Shown here: piece by piece, positions 863-27,636 of the stretch | Layout: each line of letters begins with the position of its first letter | Position numbering within the stretch: the first letter of the stretch is position 1 | From: Schizochytrium sp. TIO01 | Lineage: Eukaryota > Sar > Bigyra > Thraustochytrida > Thraustochytriidae | Length of the DNA: 64,000 nt | Direction of reading: 5' to 3' | Assembly (NCBI GenBank): GCA_004764695.1 | Contig: SMSO01000025.1 | Span: 5,634,362-5,698,361 of the forward strand | Notes under the pieces: generated by a model | The model's input: the letters and a program-made list of their open reading frames with translations, nothing else | Database searches by the model: none | What the model was told of the DNA's origin: nothing | Made by a program: the position numbers and the translations under genes

Positions 863-915
863 GGAACAGACGGTGATCAGCACCGGCTCCGGGACTTCAA
901 CCTCTGAAGCTCCTA
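863..915 (+). ncRNA. Two-hairpin leader of tRNA-Asp copy 1
   Basis: Hairpin 1 is CGGTG/CACCG around a 5-nt loop. Hairpin 2 is GGGACTTCA/TGAAGCTCC, with one mismatch and a 5-nt loop. The leader ends directly at tRNA position 1. A TATA-like TTTATATTA lies at 826-834, about 37 nt before hairpin 1. That the leader is transcribed is inferred from the TATA spacing and the conserved fold. Confidence 0.6.
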
Positions 916-987
916 TTCCAGATAGTATAGTGGCTAGTATCCCCGCCTGTCACGCGGGAGACCCGGGTTCAATTCCCGGTCTGGAAA
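916..987 (+). tRNA. tRNA-Asp (GTC), copy 1
   Basis: Cloverleaf of 72 nt without intron. The acceptor stem TTCCAGA/TCTGGAA is a perfect 7-bp match, the anticodon stem is CCCGC/GCGGG with loop CTGTCAC (anticodon GTC), and the T arm is CCGGG-TTCAATT-CCCGG, which supplies the B box GGTTCAATTCC. An A box lies in the D arm. The discriminator base is A, whereas yeast and human tRNA-Asp have G. The genomic 3' end has no CCA. An oligo(T) terminator follows within about 10 nt. The other 17 copies in this window have the same body. Confidence 0.95.
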
Positions 988-2699
988 GATTTTCTTTTTC
1001 TCCTCTGGTTATTAGAAAAGAGATTTTTTTATGTTTTTTGTTCTCTTCTTCTTGTAACATCTTTTCCTTTTTTCTTTCAGTATTAGTTTCGTATGATAGC
1101 GGCTCCTTCAAGTTTAAAATATAGTACTAGTAGCAAGATTAAAAAAAAAAGTTATTCTATTATAATTTTTGTTTAAAACACTTTTTAATAAGGTATATTT
1201 TTTTATTGAATGATACTTTGTTTAATCTTCCTGGTAGGTATCATCTACCTAATAGCTACTTTCGGCCACATTTGGATAAGATCACAGTTTCATGGCCTTT
1301 TGTTTGGTTTGGTTTTCGAGGCATCTTCGAGCTCGTCGCTCTTGACATCGCCTGAAGAAACTGGACTTTCGATCAAATCCTGCGAACGAGCGACGCATTA
1401 GATTCCTTCCTTCGAATTTCATTTCATTCACTCAATAACATGTGTCGATGGACCAGTCATCTGCGTTCGGCGCGCTCACGCGTTTGCAGTCCGTATGAAA
1501 GGTCCGAGCAGTTTGCCCCGATAGAAACAGGACAAGATCGTGGTCTGAGTGACCGTCGAACACAAATAATATGAAATTCGAAGGAATGGAATCTGAAGGA
1601 ATGGAATTCGAAGGAATGAAAGCATGAAAATATAAATCGCGCGCGCGTCTATTGGGATGAGTGAAAACAACAATGCTCTAAGTTTGGCACAAGCAGCCCA
1701 AAATCTAAGGGATCTCATATAGATCAGCACTGCGAAGTGCACAGAACTCAGTTGATGGATGGGGAGGTTCTAAGTAGCAAACTTGAAAGTGAATTCTGTA
1801 AAACAACCAAAAGCTCGGATTTAGTGGGCTGGATTTGCCCACACACGCAGTTCGCTTGTGTCGAGTTGGACCGGCACCCACACATACATAGACACATACA
1901 GACATACATCTATATACCACCCAGTTGCAAGATCTTGACCTGCAAAAAGTAGCGTAAAGACAGAAATAGCTAGATACACAACAGCTGTTCTGACCTTCGA
2001 TGAATGACATGCTTCGTTGTAATTTCGAAACCTGTGCATTTTGCAACATCTCGTGGCCTTCCGTAGCACTTAGTTCTACTCCTCGACCATACGAGGTGGG
2101 GAGGGCTATGCTGCATGAAGCAGCGGGGGAGCTTAGATTTGCCGGCGCTGCTCGTGCGGAGCCAAGTTGGTCCACGGTGCTAAACTAAGATGTGAAAACT
2201 CCGAGCAGATGTCTTGGGTGTGCACCTACATTTTTGCGAGAATTCTCATGAAATTACTATTTCTGAGGTAGTAAAATGCCCCTTAAAGATGTTCTCAAGA
2301 TCACGTCTGACTTTAGATGCACATTGGCCGTGCTACTCTCTTGAGCAATCTGCTCACTTTAAGTCCAACTTGAAGCTAGACAGGTAGGTACCTAGCTGCC
2401 CTAGTCCTTAGGAACTCGTGGAAGCGGAGCTCGAATATGCGTGCCTCCGTTCGCGCGATCAGCCTAACACTTCCCGGCTAGGCACTTTCTCTCCACCGAG
2501 ACTGGTTTGTGTAAATAAGAACGATAAATCGAAGCTTAAGCCCTCGTGGGTGTCGCCACCTTGATACAAACAAGAGTGCTTGCTGTTGCACATTCACGTC
2601 ATTCATTAAATTAGTTTGTTTGATTGTTGGCTCAATTACCCCGCTGATGTCCAGACCCAACGAAAGGGTATGTCCACTGCAAAATTTTGGTCATCAATC
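988..2699. other. AT-rich spacer without a recognisable gene
   Basis: Short open frames exist on both strands (for example 1705-2175 minus) but none resembles a known protein and several run through low-complexity DNA. A CATA/TACA-rich patch lies around 1880-1915. Nothing else is supportable. Confidence 0.5.
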
Positions 2700-2749
2700 G
2701 GAAAAAACGGTGATGAACACCGCACTTGGCAGCTTATCTAAGTTACCTG
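2700..2749 (+). ncRNA. Two-hairpin leader of tRNA-Asp copy 2
   Basis: The leader starts GGAAAAAACGG. Hairpin 1 is CGGTG/CACCG and hairpin 2 is AGCTTA/TAAGTT (one G-T pair) inside a GG/CC base. No clear TATA is visible at the expected position, where only GGGTATGTC is present. Confidence 0.55.
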
Positions 2750-2821
2750 TTCCAGATAGTATAGTGGCTAGTATCCCCGCCTGTCACGCGGGAGACCCGG
2801 GTTCAATTCCCGGTCTGGAAA
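2750..2821 (+). tRNA. tRNA-Asp (GTC), copy 2
   Basis: The body is identical to copy 1. T-rich terminator runs follow from 2823. It is isolated, 1.8 kb after copy 1. Confidence 0.95.
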
Positions 2822-5691
2822 GATTTCCTTTTTCCCTTTTTTTCCTTTTTTAAATATAAATAATATAAAAATTAAATTAACTCGAAAAGCCTGAATTTTT
2901 TAAAGCTGGAAGACACCCTTTCTTGTCATAGAATCCAGATGGCCTCCTTTTTACTTATAAATAGAAATCTCAATATAGCTAAGTCCACACAAACAATGTC
3001 TATTTGTACAGGATTATAATGGTCGTGAATACCTTTTAAAACAACTTCTTGCTTTGCACATTTGTGATCAAATGATTATAGCTCATGGACATTAGCATGC
3101 CTTCACAGTATCCAGCTAATAAAAATGGAAACGTTTGTACTCTGCGATATGAATGCCTACACTATCTATATTTCATCTAAAGTTCGAGCAGTAAATAAAT
3201 TGTCCAGGTATGTAAACGTACCCTATAATATGCGTACTGATGCTCTCGCGTGAGATTGGTTTCTGCGTCAGTAAAATTGCAATACAAGCATTACTGGTGA
3301 ATGTATTTGCATAAAGTTCGGTTCGTTATCTTTGATTCGAATGTTTGAAAGATCCAAACATTAAAACCTTTGACAATTACTAGAAAAAACTTTCACAATG
3401 TGAACCTTGCATTTGACTAAACCCCTAACATGGTGTTCTGGTACTTTGTTGAGACTGAGAATATATAAAAGGGACACGCACGGCTTTGACAATCAACACC
3501 TCTGTAGACCCATAAACTCTAAACAATCCAACTAAGGATATGAATTACAGCAACATGTGAAAGAATCGTATGTATATATGTGCCCCTGGACAGTGAGATG
3601 GGATTTGCTAATCTAGGTTTTATACACTGCACCAGAATCTCACCAAAACATTGATCTAAGCCCCTATTGTTAGTCACATAAGCTCAGTTAAAATCATATA
3701 TGTTTATCTTTTATAGGATGCTATTGAGTACACGCCGGTACTCGCGGCGTATATATGTGACAATTTACTATTGCCATGTATTCTTCTCTGTTTCATGTAG
3801 CTCATGCTTTAAATCAAAAAATATTCAAGTCAACGGCGAATGTTATCTTGACTAGATCTCTCATTAAGACAATAGACGATCAGCTTAATCATGAATTAAT
3901 TCTAGTTTGTAGAGGTGAGGAATTGCTTACAAAGAACTGAAATTGTGTCCAGACTAGTTAGAATTGCGCATGCAACACGCATGACTGTAGTGCAAACTCT
4001 TGAGAAACGATCATGCTGAGGTTTTTAATCGAAGGATTATGTAGACAAGACATTAGCAGATTTTGTAGCACACTATTTAAAGTCCTAAACTACTAGGACT
4101 TGTATATGACGTGAATATAACTATCAGATACGAAGGTGTGAGACCAAGGGAACTTGAGAGTGAAAGTTCAATCGTTACGTAAGGACCACCAAGGTTTGTG
4201 ATTGAAAAAAATATCTAAGTTTGTCTCTTGAGTTTTGCTTAATGATAGGTGAATCCCACTTTACTAGTCCCCTAATTAAAATATCAACCAACCCACCTGG
4301 GGGCTCATCTTCGAGGTCGGAAAATCACTAACGCATAAGCCCAAGTATGCAATGCCTTCTCAAATGTTACTGTGCTTTCCAAGCCCCTTGCCTTCATATC
4401 CCTAGTGTACGTCTGACGACTCAAATACAGCTTTCAACAGGGAAGATTTTTTTAGTTATAAGCTAGAATTTTGTTGGTTTGATAATGGTATTTCAAGTTT
4501 TTGCTGATATACGAACTTCAAACGTTTGTAACCTTTGTGAAGCCTCCATGCAACTTTGCTTATGGTGATCGTTAACAATTTTCTCTAGATTCGCTGGGAT
4601 ATGAATAAGCTCTCGTTTATTGACATGGATGTTGATATACGCCAATACAGTAGTATAGACAATCCAGACGTATGGCGAGGTAGCCTGCTTGCAAGGCTTG
4701 TACCAGAGACACTTTTCATATAATATACAACATCTCCAGCTCAAAACTGACCTTTTCAAATGCTCTGCAAGTTTGAAAGAGTAACGCTTCACATGAGGAC
4801 TGTTTATGTAGTTGCAAATCAAGGTGACCAGTTAGCTACACTGCTGAAAGGCATATAGATCTTCATTTTGGTAGAAAGTCTCATGAAAGCTAAGTTTCTG
4901 GGCAGATAAATGTGGAACCACAAAAGAATGCAATAAGTTTGAGCTTACCTTATCGCTGTTCATAAACGTTGTCAAATTGACTAGTATGTAGCCAGATACC
5001 AATATTGGGCACACAGAAATAGCATTAAAAACCTTTCGGATGACCTGGGGCTTGCGAAAGGCTATTCTACTACATCAATTTCGTAGCAACAGGCTTACGA
5101 TACTCTTCATATTTGTCCATATCATTTATTAAGGTAAACTTTGTAAAAACAATTACAGCAAAATCGAGGGTTTACGTAGCGATATTCTCTTATGATAAAG
5201 CTACCCGAAGGAAGATGCACGAGTGTTTTCAACAGTATATTTGAGACGACAGGTTCCGAATATGCGTAAAGCATTTAAAAAGGTTATTATGTATGCTTTG
5301 TATACCTTGCTCAACCGGAGTTGTTTCAAAACCATGGTGATAGAAACAGTGCATTATGAATGGTTTCGAGATGCGACATAAGAAGACAAGAAACAGTGGT
5401 ATTCACCTACCATCCCAAATTGTAATTCAAGCTTAACAAAAATTTTGATCCGACCAAATCATCTAACGTAGCTTTTGAACATGAATTTACATAAGCGCAA
5501 ACCTGTAGACCCGTAGGACATACTCCCAGCCTAATTCCTAAGCAGCTTACTAACGTATTATTTTGAATTACGAGAAGAGGTAATCTATTTACCTATACAT
5601 AATACCTAGCTAGGTGCTTCCGCTGTTTTTGTCTAAATCAAAAGTGCTTAAGACTATATATACGCATACGCACCCGGTGATACCATCAGAT
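2822..5691. other. AT-rich spacer without a recognisable gene
   Basis: No coding region can be supported in these 2.9 kb. A strong TATA-like sequence (ATATATAAAAGGG) lies near 3460-3472 but no open frame follows it. The TATATATA at 5655-5662 belongs to the next tRNA cassette. Confidence 0.5.
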
Positions 5692-5741
5692 GGAAAAAAC
5701 GGTGATGAACACCGATCCAGGCGATTAATTCAAATTGCCAA
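5692..5741 (+). ncRNA. Two-hairpin leader of tRNA-Asp copy 3
   Basis: Hairpin 1 is CGGTG/CACCG. Hairpin 2 is GGCGATT/AATTGCC, seven continuous pairs including one G-T, so the mismatch seen in other copies is closed here. TATATATA at 5655-5662 lies about 37 nt before hairpin 1. Confidence 0.6.
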
Positions 5742-5813
5742 TTCCAGATAGTATAGTGGCTAGTATCCCCGCCTGTCACGCGGGAGACCCGGGTTCAATT
5801 CCCGGTCTGGAAA
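5742..5813 (+). tRNA. tRNA-Asp (GTC), copy 3
   Basis: The body is identical to the other copies. An eight-T run follows 3 nt after the tRNA end. It stands alone, 2.9 kb after copy 2. Confidence 0.95.
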
Positions 5814-8800
5814 CATTTTTTTTATTTCCATTTTCTTAAATATTGTTTAATTTTTTAAAATACCCCCAGTACCTCATCACAAAATAGATAATTCGCAGCA
5901 GGAACAAACTTTTAGATCTTCAAAGGCATTCCTGCGATCTATATTTGCTATCTGCTTTTTTTATGCAACTACTTTAAGCTCTCTCTTTTATAATACAGAT
6001 ACCATTGGGTTGCAGTCGTAAATGTTAGTCTAAAACTTGTCTACCCCAACTATTGCTCTTCGTCTTCAACGATTGGTTTCGAGAGAGAATTGGGTAAGAC
6101 ACTTTCCCCTGACAATTCGCGACTGATCTTTTTCAAGAAGAAGAGTCCTAAAGGGTGTAAGTCTTACGCTTTGCTACACGCGTGGCGATATCGGTTAGCT
6201 GTAAGATGTAGCTGTAATTTAAGGATTTAGATGGCATCTGTGGACGGAATTTTAGACAAAATTGAGCAAGTTAAAGAGCTTTCCGATCAGACGCCATACT
6301 ATAACAGATTGCGATAGTTTAGCCTGCGAAGTCGTAAGTATAATTTTTAGTTGGTTTTCCTTTGTAATTCGTAAAGCAACACAGTTATCAAACTGAGAGC
6401 CTTCCTTTCAAACAAATACTGAAGCAGGATTTCAAATATGCAGATGTGCGTTATAAGATTCGATGAATATAACGGTACCTTTGACATAGTTCGTGACTTT
6501 CTGGCACAGGCTTCGAGATACGTGTGGGTATCTTGGCGAATTGTAAAAGGTTCACAGACCGCCTTTCACCCCACAACCCCACATGGGTACCTCGAAGCAT
6601 TCATGTGCTGTCCATGATTAACTTTCAGGACAGCTAGTTGAATTGAAATGATATCAAAAGAAACAGTGGTGTTCGAAGTCAAGATCCTTTACTTGAATTT
6701 TAAAAAGAGCCCATAATAAGGATGATATACCTACCTTTGCGTAGTGCGAAGAAACATCTGGATGCATAGAATCATCAGAAAATCTTGAACCAGAACTTGA
6801 ACTTTCGTTGATTCGCTGAATCGACCTAACCGACAACATACGTAAGTTGGAAACATGCCATTTCTACGGTTGGGAAAATATGTCGTAAAGTCTTCTTCTC
6901 CCACCTCACTAACCCGAACGATGCCACTCTTCTGCAATCATTTCAAACCAAAAGTATCTCATTCATTGAGTCAATCTGTCGATGTTTTTGATATGTATAT
7001 TGCAGAGTAGTTTGTGCTGTGAAGTGTGCAGAGGTAGTCTGACAAGGATGGCGAACTCAGGAGAAAGAGAAAGAAGATGATATTTGAGATATTGGGGTTC
7101 GGGTCTGCATACAGGCAGGATGAATATATATGGACAGAAGAGCTTGGCTAGGTTTGGTTGGGTTAGGTCAGACACTTAGCTCTGTGTTACTTCAATAATT
7201 TATACATACACATATATTACAAGGACAACATAATCTCCGGGAGATGGCATTCGAGGATATTAACGTAGGTGGACTCCTTCAACATCTCTGTTCTTCAAGG
7301 TTATTATGGTGCTTCTGGAAGCAGAAGCCATATGTGGTAGTTCATGGGGGAAAAATGTTATGTTTGTAAATTTTAAGACAAAACCTTGACAGAGGACAAA
7401 CACGAAGGGTACTAGTAACTAATGAAGTCTTGAACGGCCCGGGTAGTATACGTCAAGATACAGTGACGGTAGCTTTATTTTGAGGAATGTGCTAATAATA
7501 GATTGCATCCAAAGTTTGAAGTGGTGACTCGAGATCTCAGAGGTTACCAACTTAAAGGAAGGAATTGTTACGCGATAAATAAATATTACAATGTATACTT
7601 TCTTACACTATGATCAATCTTAACGCCATAGACGTAAGTACTTCTCCTCCATGCGCTCTAGGAAAGATCTTGACAACATGTCGCTATATTCCATATCAAT
7701 TATTTCAAGAAAATAGTCATACAGGATGATAATTATAGAAACTCTCAGTGATGTTGCCGACCAAGCTAAACAGAAAGGTATCACACTTCGAGATACAATG
7801 GGAAAATGACCAAAAATTGACTTAGAAAAAGTAATTCACAACGATCGAGATAATCTTAAGTCAACGAATTTAGGTTTTAAAACCCTGTAGGTGACGAACG
7901 ACGTATGTACCTCCTGATCATGGATAGAAAACATACCACAAAGTCAACTTCTGTCTCGTCGAATATACAAAAAAGAAATTGCAAGTGCTAGCGAAATCCG
8001 AGGAGAGTTGTGCAAGTTGACACTGAACAATATGTTAGCCAAACCATGACTAATGGGTCTATGAACGAAGGATGTTGATGTCAATCAATATGGACAATAG
8101 CCTCAACCAGGATATACGAAGCACAATAATTACACAAATCCATGTACATAAAATAGTTATTAGAGTAGGCCAGTACGTATACTATGAAGGATGCACACTG
8201 AGGCTTTAGCAGAGGATAATTACATCGTACTCTGCTTCAGAACTTGCCATACATAGAACTGTATATGTCTTTCTAGACACGTTAAACAGTTGCATATAGA
8301 TGGTAGGGAGACACGATGAGATCCAACAAATAGATCATCAGACATATACAGTCATGACTTAAATAATATGTTGTTCGAAAGTTAAAACAGAATATAGAGA
8401 GGCAGATGTTGACTTTTACAAATACCACAAAATGATATGCAACCTCGAACACTCGGTTGCATTATTGGTAATCGTTATATATCTCTATCAAAGCCTTTTC
8501 GGTGTACGCCTTGTGCACATTTTCTTGTCGTTTGGGCATTTCCAACTGAGTAAAATACTAAGATCCGGATTACCTATAGTGACAAAGAGGACACATTATG
8601 TAAGCCTCAGCAAACGGACAAGTGCGGAAACACTTCTGTCAGAAGAATACACGGAATCGACTGTGTATGAGAATAAACGACATCAGCCCTAATTCACAGG
8701 AAAGGAGACGTGTGTATTCTGGTCATTCATAATCCATCGGAACTCATTTACCGCGGAGAATTTAGGGACACATGAAGGTTTTACTTGCGTAACGAGTGAC

Positions 8801-9656: not shown

Positions 9657-9706
9657 GGAAAAAACGGTGATTAACATCGATTACGGAAGCTCATTTGAGT
9701 TACCAA
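9657..9706 (+). ncRNA. Two-hairpin leader of tRNA-Asp copy 4
   Basis: Hairpin 1 is CGGTG/CATCG: the C-to-T change in the 3' arm keeps pairing as G-T. Hairpin 2 is AGCTCA/TGAGTT with an outer GG/CC. TTTATATGG at 9621-9629 lies about 35 nt before hairpin 1. Confidence 0.6.
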
Positions 9707-9778
9707 TTCCAGATAGTATAGTGGCTAGTATCCCCGCCTGTCACGCGGGAGACCCGGGTTCAATTCCCGGTCTGGAAA
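9707..9778 (+). tRNA. tRNA-Asp (GTC), copy 4
   Basis: Identical body. Terminator TTTTTT about 8 nt downstream. First member of a three-copy cluster. Confidence 0.95.
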
Positions 9779-9864
9779 GGAATATTTTTTGCTACTTCCA
9801 GTTATAAACTTTTTTATGCGAGTTTCACTAGTGGTATATAAAGAGCAATGGATTTGTAAAGTTT

Positions 9865-9912
9865 CAGCGGTGATCATAACCGGCGATGGGAGCTCATGAA
9901 GTGAGTTACCAG
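9865..9912 (+). ncRNA. Two-hairpin leader of tRNA-Asp copy 5
   Basis: Hairpin 1 is CGGT/ACCG with a 7-nt loop. Hairpin 2 is AGCTCAT/GTGAGTT with outer TGG/CCA. TATATAAA at 9835-9842 lies about 24 nt before hairpin 1. Confidence 0.65.
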
Positions 9913-9984
9913 TTCCAGATAGTATAGTGGCTAGTATCCCCGCCTGTCACGCGGGAGACCCGGGTTCAATTCCCGGTCTGGAAA
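9913..9984 (+). tRNA. tRNA-Asp (GTC), copy 5
   Basis: Identical body, starting 206 bp after copy 4. The following spacer (9985-10111) is nearly identical to 18055-18181 after copy 13. Terminator TTTTTT. Confidence 0.95.
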
Positions 9985-10062
9985 GAGTATTCTTTTTTAT
10001 TTTCCACATGTCAAAAATAATGTCTTAGGTTAGGTTATGAATGCTATCAACTTTTGGGGTTT

Positions 10063-10111
10063 CAACCGGTGATCACAGCCGGATCTGGGAGTTCATCAAA
10101 TGAGCTACCAA
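10063..10111 (+). ncRNA. Two-hairpin leader of tRNA-Asp copy 6
   Basis: Hairpin 1 is CGGT/GCCG with a 7-nt loop. Hairpin 2 is AGTTCAT/ATGAGCT with outer TGG/CCA. TTATGAAT at 10035-10042 is a mutated form of the TATA element that is TTATAAAT in the duplicate copy 14. Confidence 0.6.
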
Positions 10112-10183
10112 TTCCAGATAGTATAGTGGCTAGTATCCCCGCCTGTCACGCGGGAGACCCGGGTTCAATTCCCGGTCTGGAAA
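10112..10183 (+). tRNA. tRNA-Asp (GTC), copy 6
   Basis: Identical body, starting 199 bp after copy 5. A nine-T terminator follows and merges into a 37-bp minisatellite. Confidence 0.95.
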
Positions 10184-10198
10184 GGATTATTTTTTTTT

Positions 10199-13330: not shown

Positions 13331-13339
13331 AAACATTAC

Positions 13340-14571: not shown

Positions 14572-14621
14572 GGAAAAAACGGTGATGAACACCGGCCTTG
14601 GCAACTCATCTGAGTTACCGA
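14572..14621 (+). ncRNA. Two-hairpin leader of tRNA-Asp copy 7
   Basis: The leader starts GGAAAAAACGG. Hairpin 1 is CGGTG/CACCG and hairpin 2 is AACTCA/TGAGTT with a very short loop. No TATA-like element is evident upstream, unlike most copies. Confidence 0.55.
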
Positions 14622-14693
14622 TTCCAGATAGTATAGTGGCTAGTATCCCCGCCTGTCACGCGGGAGACCCGGGTTCAATTCCCGGTCTGGAAA
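14622..14693 (+). tRNA. tRNA-Asp (GTC), copy 7
   Basis: Identical body, with T-runs of six and seven downstream. The spacer to copy 8 (14694-14820) is nearly identical to 17661-17786 between copies 11 and 12. Confidence 0.95.
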
Positions 14694-14771: not shown

Positions 14772-14820
14772 CAACCGGTGATCACAGCCGGGCCTGGGAA
14801 TTCATCGAGTGAATTACCTG
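14772..14820 (+). ncRNA. Two-hairpin leader of tRNA-Asp copy 8
   Basis: Hairpin 1 is CGGT/GCCG and hairpin 2 is AATTCAT/GTGAATT. TTTATAAAT at 14743-14751 lies 24 nt before hairpin 1. Confidence 0.65.
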
Positions 14821-14892
14821 TTCCAGATAGTATAGTGGCTAGTATCCCCGCCTGTCACGCGGGAGACCCGGGTTCAATTCCCGGTCTGGAAA
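14821..14892 (+). tRNA. tRNA-Asp (GTC), copy 8
   Basis: Identical body, starting 199 bp after copy 7. Terminator of seven T. Confidence 0.95.
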
Positions 14893-15734: not shown

Positions 15735-15783
15735 GGAAAATTCGGTAATCAATACCGGTCCTGGAAGCTTGTTGAGTTTCCTG
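15735..15783 (+). ncRNA. Two-hairpin leader of tRNA-Asp copy 9
   Basis: This copy is the most informative for covariation. Hairpin 1 is CGGTA/TACCG, so the G-C pair of other copies has become A-T on both sides. Hairpin 2 is GGAAGCTT/GAGTTTCC, where the usual central mismatch is a pair. TATA-like TTAATATG lies about 36 nt before hairpin 1. Confidence 0.65.
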
Positions 15784-15855
15784 TTCCAGATAGTATAGTG
15801 GCTAGTATCCCCGCCTGTCACGCGGGAGACCCGGGTTCAATTCCCGGTCTGGAAA
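15784..15855 (+). tRNA. tRNA-Asp (GTC), copy 9
   Basis: Identical body, isolated. Terminator of five T about 8 nt downstream. Confidence 0.95.
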
Positions 15856-17334: not shown

Positions 17335-17383
17335 CAGCGGTGGTCATAGCCGAATGAGGAAATTCAAGTTAATGAATTGCCTG
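17335..17383 (+). ncRNA. Two-hairpin leader of tRNA-Asp copy 10
   Basis: Hairpin 1 is CGGT/GCCG. Hairpin 2 is AGGAAATTCA/TGAATTGCCT: the outer pair is A-T here where several other copies have T-A (TGG/CCA), a compensatory change. TATATAT at 17305-17311 lies about 25 nt before hairpin 1. Confidence 0.65.
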
Positions 17384-17455
17384 TTCCAGATAGTATAGTG
17401 GCTAGTATCCCCGCCTGTCACGCGGGAGACCCGGGTTCAATTCCCGGTCTGGAAA
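17384..17455 (+). tRNA. tRNA-Asp (GTC), copy 10
   Basis: Identical body. First of a five-copy cluster. Terminator of six T. Confidence 0.95.
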
Positions 17456-17540: not shown

Positions 17541-17588
17541 CAGCGGTGATCGTAACCGACAATGGAAACTCACTTGGTGATTTGCCTG
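17541..17588 (+). ncRNA. Two-hairpin leader of tRNA-Asp copy 11
   Basis: Hairpin 1 is CGGT/ACCG. Hairpin 2 is AACTCAC/GTGATTT with one mismatch. TTATATA at 17512-17518 lies about 24 nt before hairpin 1. Confidence 0.6.
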
Positions 17589-17660
17589 TTCCAGATAGTA
17601 TAGTGGCTAGTATCCCCGCCTGTCACGCGGGAGACCCGGGTTCAATTCCCGGTCTGGAAA
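17589..17660 (+). tRNA. tRNA-Asp (GTC), copy 11
   Basis: Identical body, 205 bp after copy 10. Terminator of seven T. Confidence 0.95.
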
Positions 17661-17737
17661 ATTAGTTTTTTTAATTTTTTATGTGTAAAAATTACTGTTG
17701 TCTTGTAGTTTATGAATTCCCTTCGTTTGTGAATGTT

Positions 17738-17786
17738 CAACCGGTGATCACAGCCGGATCTGGGAATTCATTGAATGGATTACCTG
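17738..17786 (+). ncRNA. Two-hairpin leader of tRNA-Asp copy 12
   Basis: Hairpin 1 is CGGT/GCCG and hairpin 2 is AATTCAT/ATGGATT with one G-T pair. The TATA position reads TTTATGAAT (17709-17717), against TTTATAAAT in the duplicate copy 8. Confidence 0.6.
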
Positions 17787-17858
17787 TTCCAGATAGTATA
17801 GTGGCTAGTATCCCCGCCTGTCACGCGGGAGACCCGGGTTCAATTCCCGGTCTGGAAA
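17787..17858 (+). tRNA. tRNA-Asp (GTC), copy 12
   Basis: Identical body, 198 bp after copy 11. Terminator of five T. Confidence 0.95.
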
Positions 17859-17933
17859 GACCTTCTTTTTATTTTTCACACGTAAAAATGGTGTTGTAGG
17901 ATAGAATATAAACGCCATTAATTTTCCAGCTCT

Positions 17934-17982
17934 CAACCGGTGATCGCAGCCGGATCTGGGAGCTCAACAAATGAGCTACCAA
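17934..17982 (+). ncRNA. Two-hairpin leader of tRNA-Asp copy 13
   Basis: Hairpin 1 is CGGT/GCCG with loop GATCGCA. Hairpin 2 is TGGGAGCTCA/TGAGCTACCA, nine pairs and one mismatch, ending 1 nt before the tRNA. TATAAA at 17907-17912. Confidence 0.65.
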
Positions 17983-18054
17983 TTCCAGATAGTATAGTGG
18001 CTAGTATCCCCGCCTGTCACGCGGGAGACCCGGGTTCAATTCCCGGTCTGGAAA
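17983..18054 (+). tRNA. tRNA-Asp (GTC), copy 13
   Basis: Identical body, 196 bp after copy 12. Terminator of six T. Confidence 0.95.
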
Positions 18055-18132
18055 GAGTATTCTTTTTTATTTTCCACGTGTCAAAAATAATGTCTTAGGT
18101 TAGCTTATAAATGCTATCAACTTTTGGGGTGT

Positions 18133-18181
18133 CAACCGGTGATCACAGCCGGATCTGGGAGTTCATCAAATGAGCTACCAA
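18133..18181 (+). ncRNA. Two-hairpin leader of tRNA-Asp copy 14
   Basis: Hairpin 1 is CGGT/GCCG and hairpin 2 is AGTTCAT/ATGAGCT. TATAAAT at 18106-18112 lies 24 nt before hairpin 1. From the first hairpin to the tRNA it is identical to copy 6. Confidence 0.65.
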
Positions 18182-18253
18182 TTCCAGATAGTATAGTGGC
18201 TAGTATCCCCGCCTGTCACGCGGGAGACCCGGGTTCAATTCCCGGTCTGGAAA
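18182..18253 (+). tRNA. tRNA-Asp (GTC), copy 14
   Basis: Identical body, 199 bp after copy 13. Terminator of five T about 10 nt downstream. Last plus-strand copy. Confidence 0.95.
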
Positions 18254-19158: not shown

Positions 19159-20214
19159 TTAAAAGCCAGGGGGGGGAGCTTGCTGGTGGCGCTTCTGGGG
19201 CTGACTCTGGTGAAACGCATCGAACTCCTCAAAAAAGTCGTGTTGTTCATAGCCTCGCTTTGCCAGGCCGCTCCGCGCATGCAGCGTAGCTGCATTCAAT
19301 ATTTCCTCTCTTTCTCTAATTTGTTGATCGAGCTTGGCCTGGATATAGTCCACATTGATTGCGCCTTGCTCATAGAGCTGAAGATCTTTCGAGCCAATAT
19401 CCATCTTCGTTTCAAAATCTAGGCCAGAGGTGAGTCTTTTTCTGAAATCAAACAAGGTAATAGTCAGTGGATCCCCAAGGGCTACGAGAGCTTGGCGAAC
19501 CCGCCTTAAGACTGCCTCAAACTGCACGACAGACTGTTGTGGCGCCTGTTTGGCCAACAGCCACCTGCGAAGACACGCATCCTTCTCCTCCCACGTGTAC
19601 AGCGTTTGGCAAATCTTTGCAAGAAAGAACCTCACACGCTGCAGACCCAGCGCGTGCTGATATTCCGCAGTTAGGGGTTGCTTAGCAATGTAATTGTACG
19701 CTGCAAGGGCCTTTCCTCTAAGGTGGTTTACAAAGTATTCAAAGACCATATCTTCCCAAGACATTCCCTGATATGCTGCCTGCGTGGAGTTTTCGTAAGG
19801 AGAGAAAAATCCCTCTGGAGAATAGGGGTTTTGATTCAGGTTTGAGCGGAAGGCCTCGCAGCGCTCTACGATATCTGCCGCTGTTGTCCAATTTTCCTGC
19901 GTCCGCTCGGAGCTGAATTGCGGTGCTGGCCCATACGAGGTAATCTTGGATAGACCGCAGCCGCCATCACCCTCGAGAAAACCGCGGTCGCTTGCCCGAG
20001 CAAACTCTTTGTAGTCTTGAGGAGGCTCAGGGCTATACTTGATGAGGCGAGAGAAGACCTCCTCAGCTGGCAGATTGAATCCGTTCCACAGCAGGCCCTG
20101 AAAGTAAGGCTTCATCATAGGGCTTGGGCTCGTCATCGCGGTAGCCGTCGTACTTGTTGTTCCTACGCTGCTAGCGCTTGTGAAGCTCGTGGCGCCACTC
20201 ATGGCGCCGCTCAT
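19159..20214 (-). CDS. Gag-like protein, possibly retrotransposon-derived
   Basis: An open frame of 351 codons, counted from the first in-frame ATG at 20214 (the frame stays open upstream to about 20304 without an ATG). The N-terminus is low-complexity (Ser, Thr, Ala). The central part, with the stretch FVNHLRGKALAAYNYIAKQ followed by helices rich in Arg and Gln (for example QSVVQFEAVLRRVRQAL), has the general layout of retrotransposon Gag capsid domains. The C-terminus is Gln/Pro-rich (HQQAPPPGF). There is no zinc knuckle and no protease or reverse transcriptase nearby, and I see no LTR. It could be a solo Gag relic, a domesticated gag, or an unrelated protein. The stop follows a run of eight C on the coding strand, where a slip would change the end. 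Confidence 0.45.
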   Translation of the reverse strand: MSGAMSGATSFTSASSVGTTSTTATAMTSPSPMMKPYFQGLLWNGFNLPAEEVFSRLIKYSPEPPQDYKEFARASDRGFLEGDGGCGLSKITSYGPAPQFSSERTQENWTTAADIVERCEAFRSNLNQNPYSPEGFFSPYENSTQAAYQGMSWEDMVFEYFVNHLRGKALAAYNYIAKQPLTAEYQHALGLQRVRFFLAKICQTLYTWEEKDACLRRWLLAKQAPQQSVVQFEAVLRRVRQALVALGDPLTITLFDFRKRLTSGLDFETKMDIGSKDLQLYEQGAINVDYIQAKLDQQIREREEILNAATLHARSGLAKRGYEQHDFFEEFDAFHQSQPQKRHQQAPPPGF

Positions 20215-20400
20215 GGCGCACGCCGGAGTCTGGAGGACGAGGGAAGAGAGCAAAAATGGAGTCTTCTGGAGGTACTTATGTGGATTGCTTCTTACGGCGG
20301 ACAAGTGCTTTGGGCGTTCAAGTAAGGCCTGCTGCTACGGCTACACGAGAAGAGACCCTCGGTCCACGATCAACTGCCAAGGTCTGCGTCTTCCGGGCGC

Positions 20401-20413
20401 GGGGGGGGGGGGG
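20401..20413. repeat. G homopolymer
   Basis: Thirteen consecutive G, likely length-variable and prone to sequencing error. Confidence 0.9.
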
Positions 20414-20435
20414 TGACCTTGATTTGCTCTGAGGT

Positions 20436-20474
20436 GTTTGTTTGTTTGTTTGTTTGTTTGTTTGTTTGTTTGTT
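20436..20474. repeat. (TTTG)n microsatellite
   Basis: About nine TTTG units. A similar run occurs at 33025-33064. Confidence 0.95.
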
Positions 20475-20716
20475 TTTTATTTGCTAGCTTGTTCAAAGTT
20501 CTTTCTTCGATTGTGCAAGTTTTCCCTTTCTTCCTGTCAATCATCCAAAAAAAGTATTTACCCGTACCCATACCTACTCGAGAGTAGCATATTACAAAAT
20601 AACAAAATAAACGAAAGAAAAGAGGGCTTCGGAAGAGAAGGTTTCATTTCTCATTCTTGAGAAAGAAAATGACTGATCAGAACAAAACTTTTCTTACCAA
20701 AGAGAATTTGTTTGAC

Positions 20717-20787
20717 TGATTGATTGATTGATTGATTGATCGATCGATTGTCGATTGATTGATTGAGCGATTGATTGATGGATTGAA
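20717..20787. repeat. (TGAT)n imperfect microsatellite
   Basis: TGAT/CGAT units interrupted by single-base changes. Confidence 0.9.
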
Positions 20788-23700
20788 CGACCTGAAAGCA
20801 GATTGACTAACAATCAAACTGCTCGTTGTGTGCGGCCTGTGCTGCATTATTGTCATCTCTCCCGCTCAGCTCGATGCCGCGCAGGTGGAAATATGGGTAG
20901 GTACGTGCTAGCAATTGGCCTCCTCCACGAACTGCCCTCCCTTCCCACTGCTCCTGTCCCGTACTTCGCTCTTCACGTACTAAGCTGAGAGGCAGAAAGC
21001 AACGAAAAGAAAGCCAAATAAATACCTAATTTGAAGAGAGGTAGTAGTGCTATATTGTTATTGTGCGATGATGAGCACAATTCACCATGCGCGCATGAAT
21101 TCTCCTTGCCAGCAGCCTTCATGCATACCGCACGAAGATAACCTAATCGACGTCCTCGTGCTGTAGGTGTCTTGCGGCACGAAGACGTCCTGAAATAGAA
21201 GCCGTCAGACGCTGGTGGCGAATGACACAGACGGGAGAGGAGTCAAGAGTGCTGCTTGCTTGTTCGTCTCTTTGATTCGCCTTCTTTCTTCTTCAAGTTG
21301 TTTACTGCAATACTCAACAGTGTGCCTAAATGTAAATACAGAAGTAAACATTGCTAAATTTGCTTCTTTATATCATGATTTGAAGTTGCTTCTTTACGAT
21401 GACGGACCCTAATTCATATTCATATTTATATTTATACATTCACCCCTGTATTAGTAATAAAATGTTCTTTCTGTTTAGAAGAAGGTTGTTTATTTTCATT
21501 TAAAGTTTCTATTTTCATTAAAAAATATACATCGCAATGTCTGTCGTAGGTGGGCTGTAGATACCTGAATCCTATGCATGAAGTGATTCAACTGCTTTCA
21601 CGAAGCTGCTGTTACTGTGAATTAAAGCTCACTCATGGCTTCTTTCTATAAACAAAGGCGGAAGAAGCACGATCAATCAATCGTGCTTAACTTGGGTCGA
21701 TCGATCGCAGTAGTTCGTCAGGTAGGAGGAAGGACTTGGCGCAAAAGGACCACGTGGAGGGAGACCTCTTTGACGAAGACAAGCTCTACCTACCTGCTGA
21801 AGGAGGCCGGCCTCGCTCTGTTTTGGAGGTTCTCGCAGTGTTTCGTTGACTCCAAAGGTATCCTCGCCCTGGTGCTGGAGTCTGGGCGGAGTAATACATA
21901 CATACCTATATCGATAGGCGGTGCCTTCACATTCACATGTAGGATGACGAGGGTTGGCGACCTCCAAGTCATCCACGTGCATCTGCAAATCAATGGTTTC
22001 GTACCTGAAGAGATGTAGAACTCCTGAACCTAAGAGAAAGTCTGCATTGATTGTAAGAGCGGCCGTGGAGGTTTGTTTTTGAGATACCCAGGCACTTAGT
22101 GACCGCGTTGATCATTAATGGTGTAAAGCACAGGTGGTCGTCATAATAGAGATAGATGGACAGCTCTAAGCTCCTGCCTCGTGGCTGAAAGCCGAGGTCA
22201 GACGTTGCCAGACTGAAGCAGCGACGTCGCTTTGCTGCCACGTCAGTTTCGGGGAGTCCGACTGTGATGAGTCAGCGTGCGAATTGAGGAATGAGAGCTA
22301 GAGTTACACGGATTTCGAAGTAGGTACGGCAGACCACGGGTGTTTTATTAGTATTATGCAGAACTAGATCTAGCTAGATGTTGCTGGTGGTAGGTAGTGG
22401 TATCTACATACTGCTACTGCCAGGCTAGGGGGGCAGTTTATAGCGTTTTGCTGGCTGGATTGCTGGCGTTGTTCGGGTTCCCATGCTCTGCTGTGCTCAG
22501 TTTCAAGCGGAAGTGGCTATGAATACTGCCTGTAACTAGCTAGGTACTGAAGGGTCAGATGCCTGGAATAATCGAATACCAGATCGACAAACAAATAAAT
22601 AAATGCAAAACATTTGATGCTATTTTTACAAAAATTATTTTTACAAAAATTGTTTTTACCAAAATTCATCAACAACGAAATGGGATAAATCGATTGAGCA
22701 ATCGGTCGATGAAGAACCAGAGAGCAATCAATAACGAACGATTGTAGCGTCGAACACATCTCCAGACTTTTCTCGAAAAGTCTGGGAAAGAAGAATGTGT
22801 CGGTCGAGATGATCTCCGCTGGCGCAAGGAGCACATTATGTAACACGAGTGGGACACAGCCACAACGCCTTGCCGGACACAATCTGTCTTTACCAATCAA
22901 TACACAGTTCTTGCAAGAATTGCAACCTGCGATCAAAGCGGTTGCTGAGAGGGCCCGACCATAGGCAACGTCGGCTGCAGTTACAGCAAAGGTGACAGCC
23001 AATTGCCCAAAGCGTTGCAGGTCGCCATTTCTTCAAGCATGTCGAGGCGTCAACTAGCGAGCAGTCAGTGAGCGGGCCCGAGGGCATTCCCATCAGAGCT
23101 CATGGCGTCGATGACTCAGCGTGTATCTCGGCCGATCCGATTCTAGCTTCGTCGAATCCCGTCCACCTGCCATGACTCAAGATTTCAATCTCAACCTGGG
23201 TTCCAGGCTACACTAGGCCAACCTGTCCTGCCTTGGCCTTCCGGCGAGGGCGTGCGTACGTAGTGGCTTTCATGGTGGCCTGCTCGGGCTCTCTTTCATC
23301 AGCTCTCTGTTGACCGGATAGCGTGAAAAGACAGACAAATACCTCTTCTTTTAATTAAAAGCTTTCTCAAAACTTGCTTTCAAATGATAAAAGAATTTGG
23401 GAGAAAGAAAGAAGTATTTTTTTTAAATTAAAAAAAAGAAGGTAGTAAAGAAAGGTTAAAGAATAACTGGAAAAGAAATGCGGAAAACTAATATGATCCC
23501 TTCCCGCTTCTGAGAAGAAGTAAAACCCACTCTCTGCGCTGTACATTTTTGACTCATTGCACTGGCCCCATTTTATATTGAACAGGTCAGGGGCGGCTAT
23601 AAGCCATACTTCGTGTACGTAAGTGTGCAAATAAATCGGTAGACAGTCTGGGATAAACATGCAAATAAACACACAGATCAACAACCAATTCCGGTTTCTT

Positions 23701-23942
23701 GAAAAGATGAATTCTATCAAGAATCAACAAATAAATAAATCAATGCGTACCTGTGTTAGGAGTATCCAAGCGCTAGTTACTGACTCGATTGGTTAGTTTG
23801 CTTTGTGGCTTTTGGATTCATCGCTCTTTGGGCACTTCGGGAAGTTAGCTGGTGGCTTGGTTGGTCTAACTAATGTGGAAGACGGAGGAGGTCCTTCTCT
23901 TCTGCTCTTCTTCAGGTTCCTTGATTCCAGTATTTGTTTGTT

Positions 23943-24063
23943 TATTCATTCATTCATTCATTCATTCATTCATTCATTCATTCATTCATTCATTCGTTCA
24001 TTCATCCATTCATTCATTCATTCATTTATTCGTTCATTCATCCATTCATTCATTCATTTATTT
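23943..24063. repeat. (TTCA)n microsatellite
   Basis: About 120 bp of TTCA units with occasional TTCG, TCCA and TTTA variants. Apparent protein frames through it (Ser-Phe-Ile-His repeats) are artefacts. Confidence 0.95.
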
Positions 24064-25018
24064 ATCTCACGAGGCCCTGTTTACTTTTCATATGCTGGAT
24101 TTATTGTTGAATTTCCAAGCCTCAGGGCGCCTCAAAAGTTGGTCAATCTGGGCATTCTGTATTCTGTGATACAGGGATGCTGGTTTTGGGAATGCCATGC
24201 ATAGAATGAGACCTATTTTAACACGTTTATTTATGTTCCTTCTGGCTTGTGGAGAGGTTCTCGAGCACTTGTGTGTGTGCGTATGTGTGTCAATGGTTTG
24301 ACAGCGCATGGCGCAATGAAGCAAATTGTCGCGTGAGGAGGACCAGCTCGCCAAGATTGCCCAGCTGACGAGGAGTACGTAGCTAGTACTTGCCATGGAC
24401 GGGACTAGGCCTGGTTTAATTCTTCTGCTGGTCGAACTTATACGCACATGGTTAATTTAATTATTATTGATCTCGCAAGCACTCGAAGAATCGAAGAATT
24501 AAAGAAGCGACTCCTGAGCAAACCAAGTAGCCTGGCGGCGGTTCTCTAGAAATGTACGAAGAGTGCCAATGTCGGCCGCGTTCCAGACACTTGCAGGGCA
24601 AGCAAAGTCTGGGATTCCAAAGGAGGTATGTGTTTGTAGTGAAGAAGCGTGTAACAACGTGGGGTTTTGATCACTGATTTGGCTTGGCTTGCCGGCATTT
24701 GGCGAGAATGATGGTAACTGAAAGGTGTGGCAGGAGCCTTGTGACTAGCACTCTTGTGGTGAACAGACACCGTGGCGTTGGGCAACATGTGAAGGAGCAA
24801 CGAGGGGCTGGCGACGGCATCAAGACAAGACGAGAGTGCTGATGCATGCATCCATATCACCGATTTCGAAAAACTCTTATCTGAATATGTGACTAACTTA
24901 GTCAACCTCTACCACGAGGGTTAATTGTTAATAGTGATAAACCACTTTTTTTAAATTTTTTTAAAATTAAGATATCCTTTTTAAAATAATTTAGTCTATA
25001 TGAACTAAAAGGACCATC

Positions 25019-25378
25019 ATGAAACGATGGCGAGCAGAAATGCCCAGCAATACTGCGTTCCCGGGCAGCAACAGGACTCAGCTCAGAATCGCCGACGTGC
25101 CTTCTTCCGATGTCTATATTTGCCGCGACCAGATTAGCCCCTATATCATGGACGATCATAATCTACTCCGAGCTTTTGTGCGCAAGAGAACGTCTCTCAT
25201 GAAGTTGTGTACCAATTTACCCCAGGCCAGCGATTACTACTGACTAGGTATGACACCAAGACAAAGGAACAATTTATAGTCATGTTTGAAATTGTGCAGG
25301 CCACCTACGATCTGAGCCCAGCCACGATGAAGCTTGTGGTTGACCTCATTCTAAACCGTGTGCCCCCGATCAATTAGA
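25019..25378 (+). pseudogene. Frameshifted coding-like relic
   Basis: Two overlapping plus-strand frames are protein-like and end at TGA (25243) and TAG (25378). The second contains QRLLLTRYDTKTKEQF and SPATMKLVVDLILNR. No frame spans the whole stretch, which suggests a frameshifted fragment. The family is not recognised. Confidence 0.3.
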
Positions 25379-25379
25379 C

Positions 25380-26913
25380 TTAAAAAAAATAAGAAGTTTA
25401 TAACAACGAACCCAAAGGTATCTGATAATAGTCTCTTACCTGATGTTGAAAACCCTAACAATTTGATCCATCTACGTGCACACAGCGTCAAAATATTATA
25501 TGGTGTCGGAGGGATGGTTTTGTAAACGTTGATTCATTCGAGCTCACTCTTCTATGGCAAATGGATCAATGTTTCATGGAGTTATTAACCAAAATAAAAG
25601 GAAGATAATATACACAGCCCCGTGTGTTGATTTGTCACTAAAAATGTGTAAATAAATTCATTCCGTGGCGAGTTCAGGGTGTAGATTAGAAGAAAAAGTT
25701 GCCATCAAATACTAACGATGTGTTTCAAATACACGACCTTGTGGCTCGTCGAGCTTCAAAGACGACCATCTCCGTTCTTGGAACGTTCCTTTAGTTTGCC
25801 GCAAGGTATTTCATACTTTTGAGGATAGATGACCTTGAGCACACAAATGTACATTACGGATGTCAGTGCCACGAAACCAACGTCGACCCCTGAGACGAGA
25901 AAGAGGAAACTATCGTCGCCCATTGCTGCTGTGTTATCTATCGTCCCCGATGGCTGTGATGGGTTCTGAACGTAATATATGGGAAAGCAAATATGACGAC
26001 GACGATGAAGAAGAAGAAGAAGAAGAAGAAGAGCGAGACCCGCAATATGATTTGACTTATACAATGGTAGTGACACGCAAATGGATTTGGGAAATGAGGC
26101 TTCGATATAGACAAACACGCTACCAAAATTCACAATGCTACGTCACCGCATGCATGCTTGCATGCAAAGAGTAGAGTCAAACTCGGAAGAGGCGCTCGAT
26201 GTGCACGAAACCCCGCGTCTCCCACTGCGCTGTGAAAGAACACAAAACCCGCAAAGTCCAGACTCCAATATTCTGTTGGTGTATTTAGAACTATCGTGCA
26301 TAGGGGGTCGGAGGCCAGCACTTTTGCCAAATGGGAGGCTGATCACAGTACAGATCATCACGTGCAGGACATCAAGCATGCGGAATCGACGCCACAAAGC
26401 GGGTGCGTGAAATTATTTTCATAATAGCCTCTGGCATCCACTTGGAGATAGACAAATCAGTCTCACGGACAAGGCCGTCTGTCACAAGGCTTTCCAGCGA
26501 TCGTGTCCTCTGGCTGAAATGACACTCCCAAACCTAGAGATTATTAGGTGTGCAGGCAAGCGATACCTTAAATACGCGGGTAAAATGTTGTCAACGGACA
26601 TTGTGGCAAAACGTCTGATGGCTTGGAACACAACACAATTGGGGTGCTCTTCAACAATACAGAAATGGCCATGAGTGAATTAAACCGCAGCAAACGTTCA
26701 GCAACGGCGGCCTCTGTTGTAGCAGGCACTCCACGAAAACCACTGACACAGAAAGTAATGTCTCACGGTTCTTCTTTAAAAAACAAATAAAAGAAAATTG
26801 TAAAAAGTAGAAAATGTAGCGTTCTCCTGCAAAAAGCGATGGGTGGCCGAGGCCGACAGCGTAGTCGACACTCGAAGGGTTGTCGACCAGAACCAAACTA
26901 AAAAAGAATGCTC
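25380..26913. other. Spacer without a recognisable gene
   Basis: A GAA-rich microsatellite lies at about 26003-26033 and accounts for acidic or leucine-rich artefact frames. Overlapping short frames at 26130-26410 have no recognisable features. Confidence 0.45.
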
Positions 26914-26985
26914 TTTCCAGACCGGGAATTGAACCCGGGTCTCCCGCGTGACAGGCGGGGATACTAGCCACTATACTATCTGGAA
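26914..26985 (-). tRNA. tRNA-Asp (GTC), copy 15
   Basis: Identical body on the minus strand, 8.7 kb from the plus-strand cluster. Terminator of six T on the coding strand. First of a four-copy minus cluster in map order. Confidence 0.95.
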
Positions 26986-27035
26986 CTGGCAACTCGAGCA
27001 GATGAGTTTCCATGCCCGGCTGCGATCACCGGTTG
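26986..27035 (-). ncRNA. Two-hairpin leader of tRNA-Asp copy 15
   Basis: Hairpin 1 is CGGT/GCCG with loop GATCGCA. Hairpin 2 is AACTC/GAGTT with outer TGG/CCA and an enlarged loop. The TATA position reads CAATAAATG (27057-27065). Confidence 0.6.
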
Positions 27036-27118
27036 AATGCCAAAAAGCAAACTCGACATTTATTGCTAAGTAACACGGTCATTCTCAAACTATTCCACAA
27101 AAAGGAAAAAAGAAGGTC

Positions 27119-27190
27119 TTTCCAGACCGGGAATTGAACCCGGGTCTCCCGCGTGACAGGCGGGGATACTAGCCACTATACTATCTGGAA
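27119..27190 (-). tRNA. tRNA-Asp (GTC), copy 16
   Basis: Identical body, offset 205 bp from copy 15. Terminator of six T. Confidence 0.95.
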
Positions 27191-27239
27191 CAGGTAATTC
27201 ATCGAATGAACTCCCAGGCCCGGCTGTGATCACCGGTTG
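27191..27239 (-). ncRNA. Two-hairpin leader of tRNA-Asp copy 16
   Basis: Hairpin 1 is CGGT/GCCG and hairpin 2 is AGTTCAT/ATGAATT with one G-T pair. AATATATG at 27261-27268 is the TATA-like element. Confidence 0.65.
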
Positions 27240-27317
27240 TAAATTCAGAAGCAGAGGAGACATATATTCGATGGTATTGCATCTATTTTCACATGTGAAA
27301 AAAGAAAAAAGAAAGTC

Positions 27318-27389
27318 TTTCCAGACCGGGAATTGAACCCGGGTCTCCCGCGTGACAGGCGGGGATACTAGCCACTATACTATCTGGAA
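27318..27389 (-). tRNA. tRNA-Asp (GTC), copy 17
   Basis: Identical body, offset 199 bp from copy 16. Terminator of six T, repeated. Confidence 0.95.
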
Positions 27390-27437
27390 CTGGCAACTCA
27401 ACGAATGAATTTCCATTGTCGGTTACGATCACCGTTG
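27390..27437 (-). ncRNA. Two-hairpin leader of tRNA-Asp copy 17
   Basis: Hairpin 1 is CGGT/ACCG and hairpin 2 is AATTCA/TGAGTT with outer TGG/CCA. TTTATAAT at 27460-27468 is the TATA-like element. Confidence 0.65.
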
Positions 27438-27519
27438 AGATACAAATGTGACCTGGATGATTATAAACTAAAATTATTGATTCCCATGAAAGTATTTAAT
27501 AAAAAGAAAAAAGAAAGTC

Positions 27520-27591
27520 TTTCCAGACCGGGAATTGAACCCGGGTCTCCCGCGTGACAGGCGGGGATACTAGCCACTATACTATCTGGAA
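27520..27591 (-). tRNA. tRNA-Asp (GTC), copy 18
   Basis: Identical body, offset 202 bp from copy 17. Terminator of six T. Its cassette lies only about 270 bp upstream of, and divergent from, the TRM9-like methyltransferase gene. Confidence 0.95.
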
Positions 27592-27636
27592 CAGGTAACT
27601 CGGAAGAGCTGCCAGAATCGGTGTTGACCACCGCTG
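27592..27636 (-). ncRNA. Two-hairpin leader of tRNA-Asp copy 18
   Basis: Hairpin 1 is CGGTG/CACCG with loop GTCAA and hairpin 2 is AGCTC/GAGTT with outer GG/CC. Only a weak TATA candidate (TTTATG) lies near 27668-27674. Confidence 0.55.

Follow-up and report, generated by a model that had tools for sequence, protein, structure and literature searches.

In a window of 64,000 nucleotides from the thraustochytrid Schizochytrium sp. TIO01 (contig SMSO01000025.1; G000:C24:5634362-5698361 in our coordinates), every tRNA-Asp gene is directly preceded by a short leader that can fold as two hairpins. The leader is a real element and is probably transcribed, and selection on its fold at the RNA level is most likely. 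As to its role, we see an even chance that it is a selected, self-folding 5' leader of the RNA polymerase III (Pol III) pre-tRNA, acting in cis and removed by the protein-only RNase P (PRORP).

The leader set

ARAGORN and Rfam identified exactly 18 tRNA-Asp(GTC) genes in the window, all 18 with an ARAGORN cloverleaf and an Rfam tRNA score of 62.2 bits. A 19th copy lies outside it (G000:C24:4465276, read as L053) and came from pattern searches of the genome (64 Mb, 37 contigs). The tRNA bodies (72 nt) are identical in the 19 copies, and in all of them the leader, measured from the CGGT of hairpin 1, spans 41-46 nt and ends directly at tRNA position 1. Single-isotype arrays hold many of the tRNA genes in this genome; the tRNA-Asp genes include tandem arrays built of ~199-bp units, and copies 6 and 14 have identical leader sequences. 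A covariance model, trained on the same 18 leaders plus the 19th copy, recovered all 18 window leaders under full scoring with E-values of 5.6e-11 or better, and its best window match clear of any leader or tRNA had an E-value of 1.2. The gapless two-hairpin element that the original prediction had placed before each of the 18 genes was thus confirmed by the gene calls, the folds and the model.

The leader was also sought genome-wide, with or without an attached tRNA. The hairpin 1 pattern CGGTGRTSRNNRCCGNNNNNGG, allowing zero mismatches, gave 17 matches in the 64 Mb, 17/17 of them at tRNA-Asp leaders (reversed control pattern, 4 matches), copies 4 and 9 departing from it, and by exact match of this one pattern no orphan or non-Asp leader copies were found across the genome. 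In the window, the 18 tRNAs were the only Rfam matches, with no other family at the gathering threshold. Exact patterns searched in viral contigs (leader plus tRNA) and in genome contigs (tRNA alone), two collections in which protists are not expected, had no match.

Fold of the leader

In 18 of the 19 copies, the isolated leader has the two hairpins as its minimum-free-energy (MFE) structure. They appear in copy 15 once the tRNA is attached, and RNAalifold recovers the same structure unaided. Hairpin 1 has the form CGGT-7 nt-RCCG, and the stem common to all 19 copies measures 4 bp (CGGT/RCCG). Copies 9 (GTAAT..) and 4 (ATCG) fit it by G-U pairing, as had been proposed for the CATCG arm of the latter. 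Changes in this stem are one-sided only (U-A/U-G, G-C/G-U), with no compensated pair, and the sequence of hairpin 1 is conserved beyond what pairing alone requires. The A-T change in copy 9, earlier taken as compensatory, falls on a fifth pair that is formed in 7/19 isolated folds.

Hairpin 2 follows the plan GG-x-5 bp-loop-5 bp-x-CC, with a sequence that differs among copies. The position separating its outer GG/CC from the 5-bp inner stem is mostly unpaired (usually G.A, A.G, A.A or C.A by eye). The CC of hairpin 2 ends 2 nt 5' of the tRNA, or 1 nt in copies able to form an outer pair. Of the replacement of TGG/CCA by AGG/CCT described before, the A-T in copy 10 holds, but this outer T..A pairing is possible in just 9/19 copies (manual count). 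Variation of the inner stem on both sides was borne out. Compensation occurs in hairpin 2 only; the case for hairpin 1 is its conservation together with G-U changes.

By eye only, the leader resembles a copied tRNA 3' end. Pairing of the leader with the 5' acceptor strand of the tRNA (TCTGGGA in copy 6) was considered and dropped, as by eye it is not kept across copies.

Probable selection on the structure

Among 11 diverged copies, leader identity is 0.678 (0.574 when shuffled), and three upstream 47-nt flank segments of the same copies give 0.549, 0.559 and 0.581 against shuffled values of 0.554, 0.560 and 0.570. In an alignment of 19 rows (A1; 18 distinct) with 11 proposed pairs, paired cells amount to 98.0%, compared with 93.9% in column shuffles (0/500 as high) and at most 50.5% in a sliding control. 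Phylogeny was modelled by an R-scape-like test (FastTree tree, 1035 column pairs), whose null reached the observed compensated comparisons in 35/1000 alignments and the observed paired fraction in 0/1000. Because conserved columns also receive changes under this null, a second one was made, in which the branch and column of each change are fixed and only the new base is redrawn (2000 replicates). Here the paired fraction (0.980 observed; null mean 0.899, maximum 0.970) was reached in 0/2000 and the number of compensated cells (11 observed versus 4.8) in 6/2000. Since this null never attained the observed pair retention but no pair was significant in the all-pairs scan, the pair-retention tests support the fold in its entirety and the individual pairs are unsupported. 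The covariation claimed at the outset is therefore only partly borne out, for hairpin 2 and for the fold as a unit, and it does not stand for the 4-bp stem of hairpin 1 or pair by pair.

Folding is also stronger in the sense strand, the energy being lower than in antisense in 17/19 copies (mean MFE -14.1 versus -10.8) and the folding z in 15/19 (mean -2.17 versus -0.94). In a positional scan with 24-nt windows, mean z lies between -0.35 and 0.25 upstream of -52, falls to -1.37 and -2.77 in the windows over the two hairpins (starts -52 and -24), and is +0.60 in the window between them. Standing imperfect pairs comprise 20 G-U cells and 1 A-C cell, and single changes leaving a Watson-Crick pair lead about 11 times to G-U and about twice to A-C (manual; one-sided binomial 0.011). 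Selection of the Asp leader fold at the RNA level is thus the most likely interpretation, and the earlier description of a selected RNA structure is supported by pair retention and compensation beyond a null that preserves phylogeny and rates, together with the sense-strand bias.

Promoter-like elements, putative start and terminator

The best TATA-like element of each gene was taken from an unrestricted scan, and positions relative to the tRNA are given for scores of 6 or more. In Asp it lies at -76..-79 in 9/14 genes and at -86..-88 in 3 more, and in Lys at -75..-79 in 17/18; in shuffled sequence the best match falls in such an 8-bp window at a frequency of 0.110 (Asp) and 0.105 (Lys). Positions in other isotypes are -49..-55 for Thr (7/11), -43..-45 for Ala (7/13, with -72 in 4), -35..-38 for Tyr (4/5) and between -53 and -64 for Val (6/7). 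With no score limit, 10 Asp copies have the element 31-35 nt 5' of hairpin 1 and another 5 have it at 42-45 nt, with scores of 4.8 to 8 in these 15; in copies 2, 7, 12 and 13 it lies elsewhere.

The dinucleotide CA is enriched 27-33 nt past the TATA start relative to the positions beside it, in Asp (0.173 versus 0.059 per position, at least one in 13/14 genes), in Lys (0.159 versus 0.081, 13/18 genes) and in other isotypes (0.131 versus 0.077, 40/59). The top position is 29 nt both for the other isotypes (18/59) and for Asp and Lys pooled. CA occurs among the last 6 nt 5' of CGGT in 14/19 Asp copies. Copies 2, 3, 4, 7 and 9 carry GGAAAAAA (GGAAAATT in copy 9) before hairpin 1 in place of the CA-containing stretch, with CATCA, CAAG or CAAC 16-17 nt upstream, and their leaders are perhaps about 16 nt longer. 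From TATA spacing and CA enrichment we infer that transcription probably starts before the Asp leader, which would give pre-tRNA leaders of ~45-60 nt; this geometry, with its putative start just 5' of the leader, is in keeping with the earlier suggestion that the leader is transcribed. A T-run of 4 or more begins within 10 nt downstream of all 19 tRNA-Asp genes, so that each looks like its own transcription unit.

Leaders of other isotypes

For comparison, 148 tRNA genes in fetched loci were used (15 isotype/anticodon groups, 129 genes non-Asp). The set is incomplete: Gly, Glu, Met, Phe, His, Gln, Pro and Cys lie outside it, and in the tRNA family search 63 of 2627 candidates were scored. Over the last 46 nt of distinct leaders, mean folding z reaches -2.1 in Asp, -1.3 in Lys(CTT), -0.8 in Val(GAC), -0.75 in Arg (2) and -0.5 in Thr, and stays between -0.3 and 0.3 in Ala, Asn, Ile, Leu, Ser, Trp and Tyr. 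The single-copy leaders of Lys(TTT) and Val(CAC) reach -1.5 and -2.5, with one gene each. The positional signal lies in windows starting at -38 and -24 for Lys and at -24 for Val, where two upstream windows are also near z -0.7 (7 sequences).

A structured leader is therefore not peculiar to Asp, as had first been supposed. The tRNA-Lys(CTT) genes (L054, L064-L069, L083) have one of ~44-46 nt, adjoining the tRNA and unlike that of Asp in sequence. It folds as one long hairpin with an internal loop, an invariant outer GGGA/UCCU and a variable 5-bp inner stem, with changes in both of its arms (GGAGC/GCUCU, GUAGC/GCUAC, GGUGA/UCACC, GAUGC/GCAUC). In an alignment of 20 rows (15 distinct; one degenerate copy dropped), its pair retention was reached by the null in 25/2000 replicates. 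The leader segments GGGA, UCCU and AGGA and the UCCC of the tRNA are mutually complementary and mostly conserved. In Val(GAC) the structure is weaker and shorter than in Asp, and the majority of the remaining groups in the sample have no structured leader.

Some further features were noticed in these loci. The first Lys array copy (L054:405-475), likely a pseudogene, is degenerate in its T arm and at its 3' end, and its leader is slightly altered. Among the tRNA-Val genes (L058-L062, L067, L082), 5/9 have CCAGCAG within the last 40 nt, followed in several of them by a short, varying hairpin. The tRNA-Thr(AGT) genes (L080, L081) show AATGAGCTTG at the junction in 7/13 leaders, whose GAGC could form pairs with nucleotides 1-4 of the tRNA (GCTC), and 10/10 tRNA-Tyr(GTA) genes found (L077, L078, L079) have an intron of 14-16 nt. 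Two candidates were discarded: a structured Asn leader, with some hairpins by eye but a mean folding z of -0.25, and a purine at N-1 as a mark of Asp (19/19) and Lys(CTT) (21/21), which also occurs in Tyr (10/10), Leu (5/5) and Ser (3/3).

tRNA folding and RNase P

The probability of the cloverleaf in the folding ensemble was calculated without requiring the D arm. For Asp it is 0.486 without leader, 0.452 with the real leaders and 0.251 with shuffled ones; the corresponding values are 0.406, 0.213 and 0.091 for Lys, and 0.148, 0.074 and 0.035 for Val. In these predictions, the real Asp leaders hardly disturb the tRNA fold, and those of Lys and Val are better than shuffled leaders but not neutral.

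A PRORP domain (80.9 bits) is encoded in an open frame of 799 aa, at G000:C31:5112035-5112700. A nuclear RNase P RNA had no match in the genome, which is not proof of its absence. According to the accessible text of PMC12630138, human mitochondrial RNase P tolerates or even favours leaders of 50-55 nt in vitro, so that leader length need not be a handicap. Those substrates are like the Asp precursors in leader length, a protein-only RNase P being present here too; unlike them, they are mitochondrial or bacterial test RNAs, for which that text claims no conserved leader structure.

A proposed self-folding leader and its alternatives

In the explanation that we favour, each tRNA-Asp gene would be a separate Pol III unit, with a TATA-like element in most copies, internal boxes and a T-run terminator. 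Its transcription would start at a CA ~27-33 nt past the TATA and ~45-60 nt before the tRNA, further upstream than predicted for most sampled isotypes, and the pre-tRNA would therefore carry a long 5' leader. This leader would fold alone into hairpins of 4-5 bp and of 2+5 bp with an internal mismatch, its 5' end beginning at or close to a stem and its second hairpin stopping 1-2 nt before tRNA nucleotide 1. Its role would most likely be in cis on the precursor, a self-folded leader being unable to invade the tRNA, and the short unpaired stretch at the junction would be left for PRORP, which would then cut the leader off. Selection would preserve the RNA fold while the sequence drifts. The conservation of the structure, the promoter-like geometry, the terminators and the PRORP gene all speak for it, and the Lys(CTT) leaders offer a parallel, lying with another sequence and kept pairs between the TATA at -75..-79 and the tRNA.

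A number of results weigh against this explanation. No single pair was significant in the R-scape-like all-pairs test (best proposed pair 28:41, E 5.5 over 1035 pairs; E 0.058 over just the 11 proposed ones), two column pairs outside the structure outscore all proposed pairs, and the summed covariation score was matched by 61/1000 null alignments. Transitions at paired columns (16 toward G-U, 11 away) do not differ clearly in direction from those at unpaired ones (34.0 to 28.1), for which reason the RNA-level evidence from substitution types is moderate. The 40-nt trailer is itself somewhat conserved (0.640 versus 0.587 shuffled, 11 diverged copies). Insulation of the Asp tRNA is modest, 16% of shuffles on average doing equally well, the real Lys leaders lower the cloverleaf probability, and for some of them the predictions show misfolding with the tRNA. 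Lys compensation alone is not significant (161/2000), and there is no sense-strand bias in Lys (z -1.33 sense versus -1.73 antisense). Ala, Ile, Trp and Tyr do without a structured leader, and there is no known reason why Asp and Lys should need one. On the promoter side, related array copies make the counts non-independent, CA is more frequent within the leaders, 40 nt past the TATA in Asp (6/14, versus 5 at 29 nt) and 48 nt past it in Lys (8/18, versus 4 at 29 nt), and the start sites are read from sequence rather than from transcripts.

Among the alternatives, we regard as fairly unlikely that the stem-loops do more in cis than insulate, as a regulatory switch or a 5'-end shield through which precursor stability, processing order or export would vary with conditions. 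A start predicted very close to hairpin 1 for most copies and the mutually complementary Lys segments would suit this; the isolated Asp leaders have the same MFE fold in all but one copy, though, and the ligand, protein or alternative conformation is hypothetical. It is unlikely that the leader, once cut off, accumulates as a two-hairpin small RNA acting in trans, with the tRNA as its vehicle. The self-contained fold, strong in sense, and the excess conservation of hairpin 1 are what such an RNA would show, but hairpin 2 varies between copies, the leader pattern never occurs away from tRNA-Asp in the genome, the Lys and Val leaders have different sequences, and the window holds no Rfam family besides tRNA at the gathering threshold. 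Rather less credible is a DNA element, either a palindromic protein-binding site (CGG-N9-CCG) or another promoter part upstream of tRNA-Asp. The conserved hairpin 1, whose 4-bp stem lacks compensated pairs, could be read in this way, and the compensation in hairpin 2, the 20 G-U cells to 1 A-C, the better folding in sense, the absence of the pattern elsewhere in the 64 Mb and the position of the leader downstream of the putative start argue against it. A functionless resemblance left from duplication of a ~200-bp unit, to which the tandem arrays and the leader shared by copies 6 and 14 would lend themselves, is already disfavoured and very improbable, as it predicts equal divergence of leader and flanks, whereas in diverged copies the leader is above chance identity and the flanks are not, and the second null never reached the pair retention.

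A further reading, improbable in our view, would make isotype-specific structured leaders of thraustochytrid nuclear tRNA genes (Asp, Lys(CTT), Val) a cis-regulatory layer of Pol III output, in which the fold would time processing and PRORP would read it. The forms would be two hairpins in Asp, a single long hairpin in Lys(CTT) whose pairings exclude one another, and one short hairpin in Val; if true, isotype-specific leader folds would let tRNA supply be tuned by isotype.

Relation to known systems

Nuclear pre-tRNA leaders are usually treated as short and disposable. If the explanation that we favour is correct, the fold kept in every known Asp copy, the differently built Lys leader and the matching promoter shift would show selection on precursor structure, and the 19 Asp and 21 Lys(CTT) genes of one genome would be a natural series for leader effects on tRNA folding and PRORP. 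Within this genome, the two leaders are alike in TATA-to-tRNA distance, in length (~44-46 nt), in being structured and in abutting the tRNA, and differ in sequence and in the single long hairpin of Lys(CTT). The dicistronic tRNA-snoRNA genes of plants yield a single Pol III transcript that holds both a structured RNA and a tRNA. The Asp element shares the joining of a structured RNA to a tRNA and is unlike them in being just 41-46 nt long and in boxes C/D or H/ACA that are not consistent by eye; no snoRNA family matched the window at the Rfam gathering threshold.

Plant pre-tRNA 5' leaders have a TATA-like element, a CAA start motif and a poly-T end, with functional CAA motifs reported at -1 to -10 and a start beyond that, further 5', suggested for many plant transcripts, as far as the accessible text of PMC11700998 goes. 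The Asp genes resemble them in the TATA-like element, the CA 27-33 nt downstream, the T-run terminator and the leader abutting the tRNA, and differ from what that text describes in the predicted start ~45-60 nt before the tRNA and the conserved two-hairpin fold. A literature search by titles and abstract openings, with most subscription papers and supplements outside its scope, did not find conserved structured leaders of nuclear tRNA genes, and within that scope the original statement that no such tRNA leader had been described was not contradicted.

Coordinates and further observations

Table 1. Leaders of the 18 tRNA-Asp genes in the window, based on ARAGORN tRNA calls, leader folds, leader comparison and covariance-model matches
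Leader	Position	Strand	tRNA-Asp
Copy 1 (hairpins 1 and 2)	869..915	+	916-987
Copy 2	2706..2749	+	2750-2821
Copy 3	5698..5741	+	5742-5813
Copy 4	9663..9706	+	9707-9778
Copy 5	9866..9912	+	9913-9984
Copy 6	10065..10111	+	10112-10183
Copy 7	14578..14621	+	14622-14693
Copy 8	14774..14820	+	14821-14892
Copy 9	15741..15783	+	15784-15855
Copy 10	17336..17383	+	17384-17455
Copy 11	17542..17588	+	17589-17660
Copy 12	17740..17786	+	17787-17858
Copy 13	17936..17982	+	17983-18054
Copy 14	18135..18181	+	18182-18253
Copy 15	26986..27033	-	26914-26985
Copy 16	27191..27237	-	27119-27190
Copy 17	27390..27436	-	27318-27389
Copy 18	27592..27635	-	27520-27591

Between the tRNA arrays, an open reading frame of 381 aa (19159-20304, minus strand) looks gag-like by eye and perhaps belongs to a retroelement near tRNA genes; it had no Pfam match. 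A TBL1-like protein of the window is 79% identical to one of Hondaea fermentalgiana, the best named among the matches listed, with Mucochytrium next at 61%. G73 is the normal discriminator of eukaryotic tRNA-Asp; in all 19 genes described here (e.g., window 916-987) it is A73, and the 1:72 pair is U-A.

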